Assembly (NCBI GenBank): GCA_021496505.1
Contig: CP053031.1
Coordinates: forward strand, 2,720,001-2,784,000
DNA length: 64,000 nucleotides
Origin: Thermoleophilia bacterium SCSIO 60948
GTDB taxonomy: Bacteria; Actinomycetota; Thermoleophilia; Solirubrobacterales; 70-9
Reading direction: 5' to 3'
Positions within the stretch are counted from its first letter, which is position 1. Every line of letters starts with the position of its first letter. The position numbers were made by a program, and so were the translations under genes. The notes beneath the pieces were generated by a model. The model had not been told where the DNA came from. It made no database searches and saw nothing but the letters and a program-made list of their open reading frames with translations. Positions 33,774 to 41,982 of the stretch are shown here, piece by piece.

Positions 33774-34439
33774 TCAGCCCGTGGCGCGCGCCCGGCGCGA
33801 GCGACGGCGGCGCCCGTAGTACACGGCGGCGCCGACGCACGCGAGCACGAATGCGACCAGCACGATCGGAGTCGCGTCGCCGACGACCGTCGACACGCGC
33901 TCCCAGTTGGCTCCGAGCAGTGAACCGGCTCCGATCAGCAACGAGTTCCAGAGCAGCGATCCGAGGAAGGTCAGCCCCACGAACCACGCGATCGGCATCT
34001 CGGAGAGGCCCGCCGGGACCGAGACGACGCTGCGGATCCCGGGGAGGAGCCGGCCGAAGAAGACGAATAGCCGCGCGCGCTTGTCGAACCACGCGTCCGC
34101 GCGATCGAGGTCGCGCTGCTTGAGGCGAACCAGGTAGCCCCAGCGCTCGAGGATCGGCCGTCCGCCGTAGCGGCCCACCGCGTAGATGATCAGCGCGCCG
34201 ATGACCGAGCCGGCGGTCGCCGACAGCACGGCCGGGACGAACGCCAGCGTGCCCTCGAACACGTAGAAACCGGCGAGCGGCAGGATCACTTCGGAGGGGA
34301 TCGGCGGCACCAGGTTCTCGAGCAGTATCAGGCTCGCGAGGATCGGATATCCGCCGCCGTCGAGGGCGCTCTCGGCCCAGCTCGAGATCGACGCGAGCGG
34401 CGCGAGGAAGGCGAGGATGATCGCGATCGGCGGCAACAC
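33774..34439 (-). CDS. DedA family membrane protein
   Basis: This is a 221-aa integral membrane protein of the DedA/VTT superfamily, whose members flip polyprenyl-phosphate or phospholipids. It has the conserved ENLVPPIPSEVILPLAGF motif near residue 40 and the GRLLPGIRSVVSVPAGLSEM re-entrant motif near residue 128. About five hydrophobic segments are present, ending in a basic tail. The GTG at 34439 follows a TAGCGT box by 8 nt. Confidence 0.9.
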   Translation of the reverse strand: MLPPIAIILAFLAPLASISSWAESALDGGGYPILASLILLENLVPPIPSEVILPLAGFYVFEGTLAFVPAVLSATAGSVIGALIIYAVGRYGGRPILERWGYLVRLKQRDLDRADAWFDKRARLFVFFGRLLPGIRSVVSVPAGLSEMPIAWFVGLTFLGSLLWNSLLIGAGSLLGANWERVSTVVGDATPIVLVAFVLACVGAAVYYGRRRRSRRARATG

Positions 34440-34477: not shown

Positions 34478-36148
34478 TCAGCCGTCGATGCTTGCCGTCC
34501 TGGCGCCCTCGGCGCCGGAGCGCGCGGCGAGCGAGTCGAGCGGTGGCCGCTCCTCCGTCGGTGCGCTCACGGTCTCGAACCCGACCACCGGGCGCGGCGC
34601 GAATCGCGACGGGGTCGCCACCTCCCCGGGCCGTACCCGCCGCTCAACGGCGGCGGCGACCTGAAAGGCCATCGTCGAGAGCGCGCCGAGCGGCTGGTGG
34701 CTGTTGAGCCTTTCGCCGAGGTCGACCTGGGCGACGCGCTCGAGCCCGAACCGCCGCACGACGTCGATCAGCATCGCGATCTCGACGCCGTAGCCGACGG
34801 GCACGCTGAGCGACTCGAACACCTCGCGGTCGATCGTCATCTCGCCGGCGAGCGGCTGCTCGAAGCCGCGCAGGTCCGGGAAGTGGAGGTTGATCAGCGG
34901 TCTGGCCGCCAGCTCGGTCACGCGCCCGCCCTCACCGGCCTGGAGCCGACCGTTGTCGAGCGGGCGCCGGAAGCTCGCCTTGACGAGCACGAGCTCGGGG
35001 TCGGCGAGTGCCGGCGCGAGCAGGCGCGGCAGGAAGTTCGGGTCGGGATCACGGCTGTCGGCGTCCATGAACGCGATCAGGCCCCCGCGCGCAACCGACA
35101 CCGCGCGCCACATCGCATCGCCCTTGCCGCGGCACGGACCGAAGTCCGCGAGCAGCTCGTCCTCCTGGACGACCTCGGCCCCGCACTCGGCGGCGACCGT
35201 CGCCGTGCCATCGCGCGAATCCGAGTCGATGACCAGGATCTGGTCGATCAGGCCGCTGTCGCGGTGCGGGACGAGCCCATCGACGATCGGCCCGATCGTC
35301 GAGGCGACCTCGCGGGCGGGCAGGATCACGCTGACGCTTCGATCCGGGTCGGGCTCGAGGCGGACCTGCTCGCGAAACGGCTCGCGCCGGCGAGAGAGCC
35401 ACTCGCCGACCGCCAGGTCGAGCGCGAGGCCGCGACCCGCCCGTCCCTTCGTCCGGGCCGAGGTCACGACGCGGACCCTGTCGGGTCGCTCGATCGTGAT
35501 CCTCGCGGTCGTGAGCGCCTTCGCCAGCTCCTCGTCCTCGAGCGAGTCGACGGCCGCCATCCCGCCGGCTCGGCGGTAGGCCTCGCGCGTCAGCCCGATC
35601 GACGCTCCCGCGAAGTGGGGATGCTCGGAGCGCCCGCCGCGGCCGTGGCGCGGTGTGCGTCGCGCCAGCTCGCGCTCACGCGCGATCGCGGTCTCGCGAC
35701 TCAGCGCCGCGAGCTCGGTCGGGTCGAGCTCGATCCGCCCCGCGATCGCCCTCGCCCCGTCGGCGACCATCGCCAGTTGCTCGGCGAGCCAGTCGGGGTC
35801 GACGCGGGTGTCGGCGTCCGTCGTCGCGATCAGCGATCGGTCGTCGCCACGCTCGTGGAGGATCTCGTAGGCAACGTCCATCCCGAGCGCACGCGCGGCG
35901 CCCGCGCCCCGCCCCGGGCCCTCGATCGTCCGCAGCGTCGGCCGGCCGCCCGCGAACCGGGCCGCGACCTCGGCGGTCCCGTCGCTCACCGCATCGAGGA
36001 CGAGCAGGATCTCGAAGCCGCCCGGGTCGACGCCGCGCTGTCCGACCAGCGCCTCGAGGCAGGACGCGATCCGGTCCTCCTCGTCGCGCGCGGGGACGAC
36101 GACGATGGCGTCGAGCCGTGATCCGGGTTCGTGGGAGACGCCGCTCAC
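34478..36148 (-). CDS. Two-domain glycosyltransferase: GT2 fused to GpgS-like (GT81) domain
   Basis: This is a 556-aa fusion. Residues about 12-245 form a GT2 domain (VVVPARDEEDRI, donor/metal motif TTDAD at 109-113, HPHFAGASIGLT, TSARTKGRAG) of the kind found next to deacetylase, methyltransferase and acyl-CoA dehydrogenase genes. Residues about 265-500 resemble glucosyl-3-phosphoglycerate synthase: GKGDAMWRA, MDADS at 361-365, ELAARPLINLHFPDLRGFEQPLAGE, GYGVEIAMLIDV and AQVDLGERLNSHQPL. The usual HRNQPL block is NSHQPL here, so the metal-binding His is displaced. The GTG start overlaps the stop of the flavoprotein gene upstream (GTGA). It is the last gene of the five-gene operon. Confidence 0.85.
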   Translation of the reverse strand: MSGVSHEPGSRLDAIVVVPARDEEDRIASCLEALVGQRGVDPGGFEILLVLDAVSDGTAEVAARFAGGRPTLRTIEGPGRGAGAARALGMDVAYEILHERGDDRSLIATTDADTRVDPDWLAEQLAMVADGARAIAGRIELDPTELAALSRETAIARERELARRTPRHGRGGRSEHPHFAGASIGLTREAYRRAGGMAAVDSLEDEELAKALTTARITIERPDRVRVVTSARTKGRAGRGLALDLAVGEWLSRRREPFREQVRLEPDPDRSVSVILPAREVASTIGPIVDGLVPHRDSGLIDQILVIDSDSRDGTATVAAECGAEVVQEDELLADFGPCRGKGDAMWRAVSVARGGLIAFMDADSRDPDPNFLPRLLAPALADPELVLVKASFRRPLDNGRLQAGEGGRVTELAARPLINLHFPDLRGFEQPLAGEMTIDREVFESLSVPVGYGVEIAMLIDVVRRFGLERVAQVDLGERLNSHQPLGALSTMAFQVAAAVERRVRPGEVATPSRFAPRPVVGFETVSAPTEERPPLDSLAARSGAEGARTASIDG

Positions 36149-37311
36149 CGCCGGCTCCGCGACGCCTCGGCGATCCGCTCGCGCCCGTGCTCGTAGGCGT
36201 CGTCGCGCTCGTGCGCCAGCACGCCGACGAGCTCTCCGCCGGCGAGGTACTCGACGCTGAAGCCATCGGCGTCGCCGTCGAAGCGCGCCTCGTCGAAACC
36301 CTGGCCCCAGCCGCCGTACTTCAGCGTCCGCTCGCCGATGACCGACCAGAAGCCGGGCACCGAATCCCAGGCCGACTCGGCGCCGGCCATGGACGCCCCC
36401 GCCACGGCCCCCTGGTCGAGTGCCTCGCCCCAGTGCTCGACGAGCAGCGGCTCGCCGAGCGTCGCGTTCGTCGCCTCGGCGACGTCGCCGGCCGCCCAGA
36501 CCCCCGGCGCCGAGGTCCGCATCGCGGGGTCCGTGAGGATCCCGTCGCCGACCTCGAGTCCGGCGGCCCGCGCCAGCTCGGTGTTCCGCTCGACCCCGAG
36601 CGCCAGCAGGACGGCGTCGCAGTCGAGGGCTTCGGCGCCATCGCTTCGAAGCCGCGGGCGCTCGCGCTCACCCCTCTCGATCGCCTCGAGCGCGGTCTGC
36701 ATCCGGAGCTCGACGCCGCCCTCGACCAACCACCCGGCGATGACCGCCGCCGCCTCGGACCCGAGGCGCTCGGCCTGGGGCGAGGACTCGGCGCTGAGCA
36801 GCGTCACGCGGGCCCCGCGCGCGGCCAGCGAGACCGCGGCCTCGCAGCCGATGAAACCCGAGCCGACCACCGCGACGTGCTCCTCGGGGGCGGCCCAGGC
36901 CGCGAGCCGGCCGGAGTCGGCCGGCGTTCGCAGTCCGGCCACCCGATCGCCGGCGACGCCCGGCAGCGGCGGGCGCGCCGGCCTCGCACCCGTGGCGAGC
37001 AGGCAGCGCTCGAACTCGATCCGATCGCCGGCGACGGTGCTCAGCGTCCGGTTCGCCGGGTCGAGCGCGACGACCGCGGTCGAAGTCTCGATCGCGACGC
37101 CGAAGTCGGTCGCCCATCCGTCGCCGCGGAGCGCGATGTCGCCGAGCTCGGCCTCGCCGCGCAGGAATTCCTTGCTGAGCGGTGGGCGCTCGTAGGGAGC
37201 GTGAGGCTCGGCGGCCAGCATCAGCACCGGCCCGGCGCCGCCGTTCTCGCGGAACCCCTCGGCGGCCGACACCGCGGCCGGGCCGGACCCGACGATCACC
37301 GTGACGGCCAT
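36145..37311 (-). CDS. Ferredoxin-reductase-like FAD/NAD(P) oxidoreductase
   Basis: This is a 388-aa pyridine nucleotide-disulfide-fold flavoprotein without a redox disulfide. The FAD motif is VIVGSGPAAVSAAE at the N-terminus, followed by YERPPLSKEFLRG, which marks the ferredoxin/putidaredoxin reductase group. The NAD(P) motif VAVVGSGFIGCEAA is near residue 145, and GVWAAGDVAE near 275. A reductase C-terminal domain follows. The ATG at 37311 lies 4 nt after the methyltransferase stop (TGA-cgcg-ATG). No ferredoxin or oxygenase gene is nearby, so the electron acceptor may be the acyl-CoA-dehydrogenase-like protein or an unlinked partner (inference). Confidence 0.88.
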   Translation of the reverse strand: MAVTVIVGSGPAAVSAAEGFRENGGAGPVLMLAAEPHAPYERPPLSKEFLRGEAELGDIALRGDGWATDFGVAIETSTAVVALDPANRTLSTVAGDRIEFERCLLATGARPARPPLPGVAGDRVAGLRTPADSGRLAAWAAPEEHVAVVGSGFIGCEAAVSLAARGARVTLLSAESSPQAERLGSEAAAVIAGWLVEGGVELRMQTALEAIERGERERPRLRSDGAEALDCDAVLLALGVERNTELARAAGLEVGDGILTDPAMRTSAPGVWAAGDVAEATNATLGEPLLVEHWGEALDQGAVAGASMAGAESAWDSVPGFWSVIGERTLKYGGWGQGFDEARFDGDADGFSVEYLAGGELVGVLAHERDDAYEHGRERIAEASRSRR

Positions 37312-37315
37312 CGCG

Positions 37316-37879
37316 TCAGTCGCGCTCCCAGACGCCGAGCAGGTAGTCGCGCTCCGTCGCCGCCTCGACGCGACGCAGGCGATCTGCCCGTGTGATCGCC
37401 GCATCGACCGAGAGGGCGTCGCTGAGCATGTCCGCAGAGCTGCCACGCCAGTTGACGGAGATGAGGCGGCCGCCCGGAGCGAGGACGGCGGTGAGGCGGG
37501 CGATCGTGCGGTCGAGCACCTCGCCCCCCAGGTAGTAGAGGACCTCGGAGCAGACGATGAGATCGAACGGGCCCGGCGGCAGGCTCGACGTGATGTCCAT
37601 GCGCTCGATCCGCACCCAGCTCACGCCGCGGTTGCGCCTACGGGCGTGGTCGACAGCGGCCGAGCTGAGGTCGATCGCGTCGAGGTGGTCGCAGCGCGGC
37701 GCCAGCATCGACGTGAAGACTCCGATCGAGCATCCGACCTCGAGCGCGAGACCGGGGTGCGGGCCGATCGCCTCGAGGGTGCGGGCGTACTTCGCGCGCT
37801 CGTACTCGCTCGACGCATAACGCCACGGATCGGGGTCGGCCGCGTAGAGGCGGTCGAAGTGGTCGGCTGAGGTGCTCAC
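37316..37879 (-). CDS. NodS-like SAM-dependent methyltransferase
   Basis: This is a 187-aa class I methyltransferase. The N-terminus FDRLYAADPDPWRYASSEYERAKYARTLEAIG and the SAM motif LALEVGCSIGVFTSMLAPRCD resemble NodS, the N-methyltransferase of rhizobial lipochitooligosaccharides. FDLIVCSEVLYYL and GGRLISVNWRG complete the domain. The GTG at 37879 overlaps the stop of the acyl-CoA-dehydrogenase-like gene (GTGA). A longer frame upstream is only the other reading of that gene. N-methylation of a deacetylated amino sugar is a reasonable guess from family and context. Confidence 0.87.
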   Translation of the reverse strand: MSTSADHFDRLYAADPDPWRYASSEYERAKYARTLEAIGPHPGLALEVGCSIGVFTSMLAPRCDHLDAIDLSSAAVDHARRRNRGVSWVRIERMDITSSLPPGPFDLIVCSEVLYYLGGEVLDRTIARLTAVLAPGGRLISVNWRGSSADMLSDALSVDAAITRADRLRRVEAATERDYLLGVWERD

Positions 37880-38946
37880 CGGGGTGCGTCCTGGCGCAGG
37901 GCCGCCGCGCCGGTCCGCTCGAGCATCGGATCGAGCCGGTGCTGGAGGAGGAAGAGCTCGAGGTCGCGGCGCACGCGCTCGAGGCGCCCGCCGACGACGA
38001 ACGGTTGCGATCCGCACGCCCGCTCGGCCTCGGCGATGATCGACCGGGCCTCGGCCGCGATCCCGCGGCGGACGGCGATCGAGGTCGCGCGCAGACCGCC
38101 CGCGCGGCCGGCGAGGCGCCGAGCACCGTGGCCGAGCAACGCGTCGATCGTCTCCGTCGCGGCGAGGATGCGGCCCGCCGCGAGCTGCGAGAGCGGCTCC
38201 TCGGAGCGCCGCGATCGCAGGTCCTCGATGGCGGCGGCCGCGGCGGCATCGGCCATCCCGGCCCACGAGGCGGCGGTCCGCATCGCGTCGCCCGAGAACC
38301 ACGGGTCGCGGGCGATCTCGCCCGGCTCGCCGAGCACGGCGAGCAACGGAGCGCCGTCGAAGACCACGCGGTGACTCTCGGACGCCCGCATCCCGTGAGC
38401 CGCGAAGACGCCTCGATCGATCTCTGCGTCGGTCGCCTCGACGAGCGCGATCGACGGAGGGCCCGGCGCGTCGCCGCGCGCGAGGACGAGCGCGAGCTCG
38501 ACGCCACCGGCGCCCGAGCAGAAGTCCTTGGCGCCGCGCAGCACCGGGACTGCACCCGAGCGGTCGATCCACGCCGGCTCACGCGTGCCCGGCGGCGGGT
38601 CGCCACCCCAGACGCCGACGAGTGCCCCTGCCGCGATCCTGGCGAGGAGGTCCGACCGAAGCGGCTCCGGCGCCAGCAGCGCGATCCGCTCGACCCCGTT
38701 CAGGTGCCCGTCGAGGATCCGCCCGACCGACGAGTCGGCGAGCGCCGCCGAACGCACCAGCGCCCAGCGCTCGAGCGTCGCCTCGAGCGTCTCGGCGATC
38801 GGGTCCGCCGGCGCGGTGGCGCCCGCCTCGCGCAGGGCCGCGAACGCCTCGGCGGGGAAGCGCGGCGAGCGATCGAGCGCGTCGGCACCCGCAGCGATCA
38901 CGTCGAGGGCGCCGACGAGCTCGGTGTCGCGGACGAGCGCGCTCAC
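37876..38946 (-). CDS. Acyl-CoA-dehydrogenase-like protein of the glycoconjugate operon
   Basis: This is a 356-aa protein with the layout of the acyl-CoA dehydrogenase fold: an N-terminal helical domain, a middle beta domain (GAKDFCSGAGGVELALVLARG, where ordinary members have a KxWxTxA pattern), and a C-terminal helical bundle. It is shorter than typical members and its motifs are divergent. I could not identify a certain catalytic Glu, so it may bind FAD but act on an unusual substrate. The GTG start overlaps the deacetylase stop and its own stop overlaps the methyltransferase start. Such proteins recur next to GT2, deacetylase and NodS-type genes. Confidence 0.78.
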   Translation of the reverse strand: MSALVRDTELVGALDVIAAGADALDRSPRFPAEAFAALREAGATAPADPIAETLEATLERWALVRSAALADSSVGRILDGHLNGVERIALLAPEPLRSDLLARIAAGALVGVWGGDPPPGTREPAWIDRSGAVPVLRGAKDFCSGAGGVELALVLARGDAPGPPSIALVEATDAEIDRGVFAAHGMRASESHRVVFDGAPLLAVLGEPGEIARDPWFSGDAMRTAASWAGMADAAAAAAIEDLRSRRSEEPLSQLAAGRILAATETIDALLGHGARRLAGRAGGLRATSIAVRRGIAAEARSIIAEAERACGSQPFVVGGRLERVRRDLELFLLQHRLDPMLERTGAAALRQDAPR

Positions 38947-39563
38947 GGCGTGCCCTCGGCGAGCGTCGTCGGCTCGAGCCGGCGCCGGCTCGCCAGAGCC
39001 GCGAGCCGGCCGATCAGCTCGACGGTCTGCTCGCAGCCGTCGCGCCGCGCGCCCGGCCCGATGCCGTCGTGCATCAGCACCACCTCGCCGTCGGCGAGCT
39101 CCCCGCCCGGCAGCGCGGCCGCCATCTCCTCGGCGCTGTCACCGCGCCAATCGTGCGTGTCGAAGGACCAGTGCCAGAGCTCGAGCCCGAACTCCTCGGC
39201 GGCGGTCGCGCTCGCGGGGGTCTCGATCCCCCACGGCGTCCGCCAGCTCGCCGGTTCGATCCCGAGGCCCTCGAGCGCGGCGCGACCGGCGCGCGCCTCC
39301 TCGAGCACCTCGGTCTCCGAGAGCTCGCTGTGGCGGACGTGCTCGACGCAGTGCAGAGCGACCTCGTGCCCCTCGGCCGCCATCCGCTCGATCAGCCCGG
39401 GGTTCTCGAGCGCTGACCCGACGCAGCAGAAGAAGGTCGCGCGAAGCCGCTCGTGGCCGAGCGCGTCGAGAACCCGCGGCGTCCAGACGGGATCGGGTCC
39501 GTCGTCGAAGGTGAGAGCGACCCGGTCGGGTGCGGTATGTCGGCGGGGCGAGCTCAGCGGCAT
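38943..39563 (-). CDS. Polysaccharide deacetylase (NodB homology domain)
   Basis: This is a 206-aa carbohydrate esterase family 4 protein that would remove N-acetyl groups from an amino sugar. Motif 1 is TFDDGPDP (Asp20, Asp21); the metal His pair is HCVEH (near residue 68); motif 3 RTPWG is near 108; and the final motif LMHDG is near 170. There is no signal peptide or membrane helix, so it should act in the cytoplasm on a precursor rather than on the wall. It is the first gene of the operon and its stop overlaps the next start (GTGA). Confidence 0.9.
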   Translation of the reverse strand: MPLSSPRRHTAPDRVALTFDDGPDPVWTPRVLDALGHERLRATFFCCVGSALENPGLIERMAAEGHEVALHCVEHVRHSELSETEVLEEARAGRAALEGLGIEPASWRTPWGIETPASATAAEEFGLELWHWSFDTHDWRGDSAEEMAAALPGGELADGEVVLMHDGIGPGARRDGCEQTVELIGRLAALASRRRLEPTTLAEGTP

Positions 39564-39616: not shown

Positions 39617-40807
39617 TCAGCTCGTAGCGGGCTCGACCGCGCGCCGCTCGGGCAGGGGCACGCTCGGGGTTCGAGCGAGGCAGATCGCGTGCATCACGAG
39701 CTGGGTCCCGTGCGGGAGCCGGATGTCCGATTCGTCGGGGCGGCCGAGCAGCTTCTCGGCCTCGGCCAGGACGCCGAGCACCGCCTCGCAGACCTCGGCC
39801 GCGCGCGAGCTCTCCTCGACGACGCAGGCGAGCTCGGCGAGCGACAGCGCCTCCGTCGGGTCACCGCCGGACGCGATCGCGGTGATCGCCGACGTCAGGT
39901 GCGAGGCGACGCGGGCGAGCACCGGATCCTCGGTCCGCGGCGAGGGCTCGCCGTCCTTGCCCACCCCCGGGGCGCGGCCGACGTCGAGCGGGCCGTCGCC
40001 GGCGAGGATCGCCTCGATGTTGCCGCGCGCGATCGCGACGAGCCCGTCGGGCGAGATGCAGGCCTCGACCGCGTAGCGCATGTGCGTCGCGAAGCTGAGC
40101 GCCGGGCGGCCATAGGGCGAATCGGAGGCCCAAACGATGCGACCGGGCGGGACGAGCGAGAACAGAGCCTCCATGTCCGCCGGGTTCCACCACGAGGTGT
40201 CGACGAAGACGTTCTCGCGGGCACCGATTTCGCGCCAGATCCAGCCGAGGTCGGAGACGGCGGCGTGAGCGAGGATCAGGCGCGCGCCGGGGTGGCGGTC
40301 GGCGAGCTCGATCGCGTGCCGCCCGAGCGCGGGGATCCCGCGACCGGCGTGGATCAGCACCGGCGCCCGCGCCTCGGATGCCAGCTCGACCACGGCGTGG
40401 ACGCCGGGCTCGTCGAGGCCGAAGCGCTCGGCGCGCGGATGGAACTTGAACCCCACGGCGCCCGCATCGAGGCAGCGGCGGGCCTCGGCGAGCGCGTCGT
40501 CGCGCGGATCGATCCGCGCGAGCGCCGCGACCCGCCCGCCCGACTCGGCCGCGGTCGCGATCGCGAAGTCGTTCGCCGCGGGGTAGCCGCCGGGCTCGTG
40601 CATCGGGAACGTCAGCGCCCGCGCGCCGATCGGGTCGAGCCCCGCGACGAGCTCGGCGGGGGTCTGCCGGTAGCCGTCGGGGTCGTTCTGGCCGATGTGC
40701 GTATGGGCATCGAACGGCCGCCGCTCGCCGGTCGTCTCGAGCATCGCGTCGGCCCAGGGCCTCGAGATCCGATCGATCTCGGCGTCGGGGTCGGGCTCGG
40801 TACTCAA
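39617..40807 (-). CDS. Amidohydrolase 2-type metal-dependent hydrolase
   Basis: This is a 396-aa protein. A TIM-barrel domain begins with FDAHTHIGQ near residue 35 and carries FKFHPRAERFG, LIHAG, LILAHAAVSDLGW and WASDSPYG, the usual metal and substrate positions of the amidohydrolase 2 family. About 100 further residues form a helical C-terminal extension of unknown role. The TTG at 40807 overlaps the aminotransferase stop (TTGA), so the two genes are coupled. The longer frame upstream runs through the aminotransferase gene and is rejected. Substrate is unknown. Confidence 0.82.
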   Translation of the reverse strand: MSTEPDPDAEIDRISRPWADAMLETTGERRPFDAHTHIGQNDPDGYRQTPAELVAGLDPIGARALTFPMHEPGGYPAANDFAIATAAESGGRVAALARIDPRDDALAEARRCLDAGAVGFKFHPRAERFGLDEPGVHAVVELASEARAPVLIHAGRGIPALGRHAIELADRHPGARLILAHAAVSDLGWIWREIGARENVFVDTSWWNPADMEALFSLVPPGRIVWASDSPYGRPALSFATHMRYAVEACISPDGLVAIARGNIEAILAGDGPLDVGRAPGVGKDGEPSPRTEDPVLARVASHLTSAITAIASGGDPTEALSLAELACVVEESSRAAEVCEAVLGVLAEAEKLLGRPDESDIRLPHGTQLVMHAICLARTPSVPLPERRAVEPATS

Positions 40808-41982
40808 CGCGGCGAACCCTCCGTCGTCCGCGTCGAGGCGACGGCGTCGGCGATCCGGCCGACGATCCGCTCGAGGATCGCCGGGGAGGTCGCGAAGTTC
40901 AGTCGCGCGAAGCCCTCCCCCTCGCGGCCGAACTGCGGGCCGGGCGACAGCGCGATCCCGGCCTCGACCAGGCAGAGCTCGGCGGGGTCGGCGCCGAGCG
41001 CGAGGCCGCGCATGTCGAGCCAGGCGAGGAAGCTCGCGTCCGGCGGCCGGTAGCGGACGTCCGGGAGTCGCTCGGCGAGCAGGTCCGCGAGCCGGCGGCG
41101 GTTCTCGTCGAGAACCGCGATGACCGCGTCGAGCCACTCGTCGCCGGCGTCGAACGCGGCGACGCTGGCGATCACGCCGAGGTGTCCGACGTGACGCGCG
41201 ACCGACCCGATGCGCTCGAGCCGCTCACGCGCGGGACCGTCCGCCGCAACGGCGACGGCGCACTTCAGACCGGCGACGTTGAAGGCCTTGGAAGCCGAGC
41301 TCAGCACCACCCCGCGGCGCGCGGCGGCCTCCGAGACGGTCGTGAACGCGTGATGCTCGGACCCGGGCATCAGGAGGGGCGCGTGGATCTCGTCGGAGAT
41401 CACCCAGGCGTCGTGGGACTCAGCGAGCTCGGCGAGCCGGACGAGGTCGTCTCGCGGGACCACCCGGCCGACCGGATTGTGCGGAGAGCACAGGATCACG
41501 ACCCGCGCGCCCGAGGCCAGCTCGGCTTCGATCGCATCGAGGTCGAGGTCCCCGGAGGAGTCGAGGGGAACCTGGATCAACGGGCTCCCGGCCTCCGGCA
41601 CGACCTCGAAGAAGGGGTGGTAGACCGGCGTCGTGATGATCGTCCCGCCGGCGTCAGGATCGAGGACGCGGACGAGCTCGGTGACCCCGACGACGACGTC
41701 GGAGACCGCGATCACCGAACCCGGATCGAGCTCCCAGCCGAGCCGCCTGGACGCGAAGCGGGCGAACGAGCCGCCGAGGTCGCTCGCGTCGGGAAACGCG
41801 TAGCCGGCGTCATCGCGATCGACCGCCGCCCTGAGCGCATCGCGCACCGGATCGGCGAGCGGGAAATCCATCTCGGCGACCCAGGCGGGGAGGGCGTCTC
41901 CGTAGTACGCCCACTTGGCGCTGGTGCGCTCGCGGAGCCTCGCCTCGTCGAGATCGATCAGCCGGGAGCGGTCGAACACCAT
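40804..41982 (-). CDS. MalY/PatB-type PLP-dependent aminotransferase or C-S lyase
   Basis: This is a 392-aa fold-type I PLP enzyme. The N-terminus RTSAKWAYYGDALPAWVAEMDFPLADPV is typical of the MalY/PatB group (cystathionine beta-lyase or C-S lyase). CSPHNPVGRV and WVISDEIHAPL place the PLP Asp, SSASKAFNVAGLKCA the Schiff-base Lys, and ARLNFATS the carboxylate-binding Arg. The ATG at 41982 follows TAGCGT closely (5 nt); GTG as second codon gives 8 nt. It is coupled to the amidohydrolase downstream. Confidence 0.88.
   Translation of the reverse strand: MVFDRSRLIDLDEARLRERTSAKWAYYGDALPAWVAEMDFPLADPVRDALRAAVDRDDAGYAFPDASDLGGSFARFASRRLGWELDPGSVIAVSDVVVGVTELVRVLDPDAGGTIITTPVYHPFFEVVPEAGSPLIQVPLDSSGDLDLDAIEAELASGARVVILCSPHNPVGRVVPRDDLVRLAELAESHDAWVISDEIHAPLLMPGSEHHAFTTVSEAAARRGVVLSSASKAFNVAGLKCAVAVAADGPARERLERIGSVARHVGHLGVIASVAAFDAGDEWLDAVIAVLDENRRRLADLLAERLPDVRYRPPDASFLAWLDMRGLALGADPAELCLVEAGIALSPGPQFGREGEGFARLNFATSPAILERIVGRIADAVASTRTTEGSPR

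Follow-up and report, generated by a model that had tools for sequence, protein, structure and literature searches.

A five-gene operon on the minus strand of the genome of Thermoleophilia bacterium SCSIO 60948 (a single contig of 3.42 Mb) represents a real, conserved and uncharacterised pathway. It occupies positions 34478–39563 of the 64,000-nucleotide stretch analyzed here (contig CP053031.1, positions 2,720,001–2,784,000), which we call the window, and encodes a polysaccharide deacetylase of the CE4 (NodB) type, a flavoprotein with the acyl-CoA dehydrogenase (ACAD) fold, a NodS-like S-adenosylmethionine (SAM) methyltransferase, an FAD/NAD(P)H oxidoreductase of the ferredoxin-reductase type, and a fusion of two glycosyltransferase (GT) domains, GT2 and GT81. 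Our preferred reading, to which we assign a probability of roughly 45%, is that soluble cytoplasmic enzymes make a small glycoside: an N-acetylhexosamine (HexNAc) would be placed on a hexosyl-glycerate and then deacetylated, N-methylated, and oxidised. No paper describing the cluster or its product was found in the literature searched, in agreement with an earlier sequence-only reading of this DNA, which knew of no described product.

The first gene encodes the deacetylase (39563–38943, 206 aa; PF01522, 2.6e−23, 82.7 bits vs. a cut-off of 23.1) and is followed by the ACAD-fold flavoprotein (38946–37876, 356 aa), which belongs to an operon-specific subfamily without the acyl-CoA dehydrogenase catalytic Glu. 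Next come the methyltransferase (37879–37316, 187 aa; PF05401, 2.4e−22) and the oxidoreductase (37311–36145, 388 aa; Pyr_redox_2, PF07992, 1.9e−57; HcaD, 2.8e−60). In the fusion gene (36148–34478), the N-terminal GT2 domain (36148–35354, about 265 aa; PF00535, 8e−31) precedes a C-terminal GT81 domain of the GpgS/MpgS type (35353–34478; NF010496, 318.9 bits vs. a cut-off of 262). Three junctions are GTGA overlaps (−4, −4, −4), while the one between methyltransferase and oxidoreductase is a 4-nt gap. All five genes were recovered exactly by a codon-usage gene caller, and the genes, families, and junctions proposed by the sequence-only reading were borne out with Pfam and NCBIfam, the ACAD-like protein being a weak family match below the Pfam cut-off (PF02770, 21.5 vs. 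33.3 bits). Inspection of the five protein sequences revealed no membrane or hydrophobic segments, which argues that the chemistry is probably soluble.

When the ACAD-like protein was used as a query against 399 genomes of the class (E ≤ 1e−15), 30 genomes matched, one of which (G003) was rejected as an operon carrier (30% identity, operon neighbours missing), leaving 29 operon genomes. Conserved co-occurrence in related genomes, on which the sequence-only reading had staked itself beforehand, is thus found in 29/399 genomes. In a phylum sample the same protein matched 26 of 396 genomes, mainly Rubrobacteraceae (f23), where it was present in 23 of 31 genomes; the gene order holds in all 20 loci fetched from this search, within the limits of their contigs. 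According to neighbourhood annotation, the order NodB–ACAD–NodS–(ferredoxin-reductase-like)–GT2–(GpgS), mostly with 4-nt overlaps, is kept in essentially all loci with enough contig, covering the 29 Thermoleophilia genomes and these 20 further loci. An arrangement repeated in this way across dozens of genomes far exceeds what chance could produce. Pairwise distances correlate between loci for most operon gene pairs, the correlation being weak for the deacetylase and the ferredoxin-reductase-like protein. Flanking genes are not shared from locus to locus, hence the operon acts as a self-contained unit.

Several neighbours were recorded at individual loci. In the window, an amidohydrolase and a class I/II aminotransferase gene lie on the same strand 53 nt upstream of the operon (39617–41982), and a DedA-like gene with a VTT domain lies 38 nt downstream, also on the same strand (33774–34439). 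These could be co-transcribed with the operon in the window genome only; as they do not recur across loci, they were rejected as operon members. A HAD phosphatase was likewise rejected as a constant partner, being nearby at 6 loci only. In three genomes of one genus (L089, L090, L093), the ACAD and NodS genes are separated by a gene on the opposite strand, whose product of about 505 aa is peptidase-like and looks secreted. Rubrobacter indicoceani carries the operon in the window's gene order on a 170-kb plasmid (NZ_CP031116; L042, 73040–89945), with arsM, the gene of an ArsR regulator, and arsH some 2 kb away and a gene for a large hydrophobic protein without a Pfam family immediately downstream.

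The core of the operon extends beyond the Actinomycetota. A tblastn search of plasmids with the ACAD-like protein retrieved 40 records, chiefly from Alphaproteobacteria and Deinococcus, and 14 regions were opened: one Rubrobacter plasmid, one Nostoc record, and 12 annotated clusters of ACAD, PIG-L, and NodS-like methyltransferase genes (with one intervening gene in D. radiodurans). In the unannotated Nostoc record the ACAD and PIG-L genes were detected and a methyltransferase was not found. The proteobacterial cluster of GT2, PIG-L, NodS-like, and ACAD-like genes that the sequence-only reading had pointed to is therefore real, and a NodB-type deacetylase does stand in the place of PIG-L in the actinobacterial branch, as it had proposed. 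Searched with a profile built from the actinobacterial GT2 domain, every GT-containing cluster of Proteobacteria and Deinococcus (10/10) gave a single GT that scored above 100 bits. The ACAD-like proteins of both branches share the motifs R..[DE]GH.N, GVW, K..[CA]SG, and DL..[YF]L.Q, and their NodS-like enzymes share DPW, YE..K, SE..Y, and further residues. Judged by these sequences, the two branches have a homologous core in common and differ in their deacetylase, PIG-L or CE4/NodB. The ACAD-like gene of the D. radiodurans plasmid (L044, 5543–7882) is annotated with 779 aa, roughly double the normal size, the homologous part being C-terminal.

CE4 and PIG-L enzymes have unrelated folds and a common de-N-acetylase chemistry. 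This deacetylase swap is the best evidence that de-N-acetylation would be a required step of the pathway, because two unrelated enzymes occupy one slot. The window protein has all five CE4 catalytic motifs (TFDDGPD, HxxxH, RxPWG, W..D..DW, LxHDG); motifs 2–5 are retained in 33/33 orthologues and motif 1 (T[FY]DDGP) in 28/28 that cover this part, and the predicted role of the protein is to deacetylate an N-acetylhexosamine, leaving a free amine. For the NodS-like enzyme, whose second-best PDB match is NodS (3ofj), N-methylation of an amino sugar is predicted.

The GT81 domain is the only GpgS-type protein over the cut-off in the window genome. Its best PDB sequence match is Rubrobacter xylanophilus MpgS (RxMpgS, 3f1y; 242 bits), followed at a distance by GpgS (182 bits). 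The GpgS equivalog model NF010496 gives a 251-residue stretch of RxMpgS 338.6 bits (cut-off 262), so the model cannot tell glucosyl from mannosyl enzymes, and MpgS enzymes may be mislabelled as GpgS in annotation. Because RxMpgS scores even higher on this model than the window domain, a strict GpgS reading was rejected: of the glucosylglycerate proposed earlier, the GT81 family stands, but glucose is too specific for a domain that is nearest to RxMpgS. Following the residue roles in catalysis described in PMC2581804, the window domain retains E54, K114, DxD, T187, PL.GE, Y229, and E232. Ser81, said to exclude GDP (PMC2581804), was located by counting from the conserved Glu54, Lys114, and Asp134; at this approximate position there is Ser in the window and Ala, like in RxMpgS, in 17/26 operon members.

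In most Thermoleophilia GpgS is fused to the GT2 domain; three loci (L088, L094, L095) have it as a gene of its own in first position, and otherwise it is located elsewhere. It is present in 29/29 operon genomes vs. 133/370 others (Fisher 9e−13, uncorrected for ancestry), in 7/7 genomes checked, including those without GpgS in the operon, and in 11/11 of the Rubrobacteraceae/f13 set. At seven Rubrobacteraceae loci the fused GT81 domain is degenerate, having lost the catalytic Lys, DxD, and the acceptor Thr (L149, L153, L154, L155, L157, L159, L164), and the tested genomes of this family with a degenerate fused domain possess a stand-alone GpgS/MpgS. As the stand-alone enzyme remains where the fused domain is degenerate or absent, a hexosyl-(phospho)glycerate would presumably be a substrate and could be supplied from either place.

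In a fold search the GT2 domain matched many GT2 enzymes, including WrtF and chondroitin polymerase, and gave no hint of the donor. Its likeness to glycosyltransferases of polymers and lipopolysaccharide is compatible with another view, unlikely in our judgement but to be taken seriously, in which the operon would add a de-N-acetylated, N-methylated residue to a lipid-linked or polymeric envelope glycan or to a glycolipid, GpgS being tied to it only via the common sugar-nucleotide pool. The two or three further GTs in some proteobacterial clusters, the hydrophobic protein directly 3′ of the R. indicoceani operon, and the DedA-like protein next in the window would fit an envelope role as well, whereas the five operon proteins without a membrane segment, the lack of a recurrent flippase, ligase, or polymerase at the loci, and the physical fusion of GT81 to GT2 in most Thermoleophilia argue for the small soluble glycoside.

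The oxidation step depends on the flavoprotein, for which AlphaFold predicts an ACAD fold (pLDDT 84.4) that VIA superimposes on ACAD-fold structures over about 340 residues (Z about 33–34, rmsd about 3). Foldseek and VIA were set aside as arbiters between oxygenase and dehydrogenase, since dehydrogenases tie with the oxygenases DszC, KijD3, and MsuC. When aligned with reference ACADs of the class (L014, L020, L027; GEGT), all operon members inspected have His or Ala, Pro, Gly, and similar at the position of Glu376 of MCAD, and the aligned members have Met, Ile, Leu, or Trp at that of E254 of IVD. Profile matches include the nitrososynthase ORF36, KijD3, DszC, and MsuC, and the sugar N-oxygenases KijD3 and ORF36 are among the top PDB sequence matches. 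Group D oxygenases include N-hydroxylases (PMC6165268). Owing to the loss of the dehydrogenase Glu, the N-oxygenase matches, and the N-hydroxylases within group D, oxidation of an amino sugar appears more likely than chemistry of the beta-oxidation type; the ACAD fold and the missing Glu agree with a group D monooxygenase, yet dehydrogenases fit the fold equally. The ferredoxin-reductase-like gene is missing from about half of the Thermoleophilia loci and present in the Rubrobacteraceae loci, and its product is an optional member that would act as the electron donor. Operons without it sometimes have a divergent copy a few kb away (L082, 2888–4003; L088, 10877–12019).

We consider it improbable that the ACAD-fold protein dehydrogenates a carrier-bound acyl or aminoacyl group in a ColB1-like manner, which would yield an acylated sugar conjugate. 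The fold does resemble ACADs and ColB1 (Z 34.3, 339 residues, rmsd 2.9), but neither known catalytic Glu position holds Glu, for which reason acyl modification by this protein was rejected, and neighbourhood annotation shows no recurrent operon gene for an acyltransferase, a carrier protein, or an acyl-CoA ligase. The acyl-modified product suggested by the sequence-only reading is therefore unsupported, the operon having no acyltransferase and its flavoprotein no catalytic Glu.

Genes for catalase, Mn-catalase, a universal stress protein, and Ku/LigD lie beside several proteobacterial versions, which may point to a stress role for the pathway. Such oxidative-stress neighbours, together with the matching logic of glycosyl transfer, de-N-acetylation, and amine modification, would also suit a mycothiol- or bacillithiol-like route to a redox cofactor or thiol. 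To this we attach even less credence, given that a Cys ligase or acetyltransferase is not recurrent in the operon; the one match to MshC in the window genome, below the cut-off (270.8 vs. 485.1 bits), does not decide the matter. A Nod-factor-like lipochitooligosaccharide signal, which the NodB- and NodS-related enzymes in a single operon had brought to mind, can be practically dismissed, and with it the label given by the sequence-only reading beyond a family resemblance, as both proteins fall far short of their equivalog cut-offs (TIGR04243, 117.1 vs. 240 bits; NF041650, 90.2 vs. 300 bits), NodA (PF02474) has no match in the window genome (nor in the control genomes), and no NodC-type family is among the listed matches of the GT2 domain.

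In the soluble glycoside pathway that we prefer, the GT81 domain or a stand-alone copy would make hexosyl-3-phosphoglycerate, glucosyl or mannosyl, and the GT2 domain would transfer N-acetylhexosamine to this product or a comparable acceptor. With the acetyl group taken off by the CE4 deacetylase, the NodS-like enzyme would methylate the freed amine, and the ACAD-fold flavoprotein would oxidise the amino sugar, either by N-oxidation or by a kindred oxygenation of the group D type, with electrons possibly supplied by the NAD(P)H flavoprotein where present. We infer this order of steps, as well as the substrate, the product, the methylation site, the type of oxidation, and a stress-protection role. 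Several observations weigh against this pathway. No gene is annotated as GT81 in the opened proteobacterial clusters; in Rubrobacteraceae the fused GT81 lacks Lys114, DxD, and Thr187 or is missing altogether, so not all operons need a GT81 reaction of their own; and one locus (L074) is without the deacetylase gene. In addition, NodS-like enzymes may act on other amines or hydroxyls, the fold of the flavoprotein does not separate oxygenases from dehydrogenases, and the reductase is of the Pyr_redox_2 and not of the HpaC type with which group D monooxygenases are usually paired.

The enzyme core is found in Rubrobacter, Deinococcus, Sphingomonas, and other lineages noted for withstanding desiccation or radiation, yet no described product was found for it in the searched literature. 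The actinobacterial form adds two clues over the proteobacterial one: the swap of the deacetylase fold would pin one chemical step, and the fused GpgS/MpgS points to a hexosyl-glycerate acceptor, by which the product of the whole family becomes testable. More speculatively, and doubtful at present, the family could produce a hitherto undescribed cross-phylum class of stress metabolites, soluble N-methylated and N-oxidised hexosamine glycosides. Their acceptor would be hexosyl-glycerate in Thermoleophilia and Rubrobacteraceae, Alphaproteobacteria and Deinococcus would use others, and the deacetylation step would have been solved twice independently.

Among known systems, the clusters annotated on RefSeq plasmids of Alphaproteobacteria and Deinococcus resemble the window operon in the homologous ACAD-fold subfamily, the NodS-like enzyme, and one homologous GT2 per tested cluster. 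They differ from it by having PIG-L instead of CE4, by additional GTs in some cases, and, in the clusters opened, by the absence of an annotated GT81 partner or ferredoxin-reductase-like gene. Rhizobial NodB and NodS share with it the CE4 and NodS families, encoded together, but the window proteins are below both equivalog cut-offs and are accompanied by another GT in another operon. In comparison with GpgS/MpgS (M. tuberculosis Rv1208 and RxMpgS), the window domain retains the catalytic residues but has an RxMpgS-like N.HQ segment and sits behind a GT2 domain, and its counterpart is degenerate in Rubrobacteraceae operons. KijD3, ORF36, and DnmZ (group D), which act on amino sugars as dTDP-sugars, have the ACAD fold of the operon flavoprotein and are among its top PDB sequence or fold matches, although the identity is about 20% and dehydrogenases are equal by fold.

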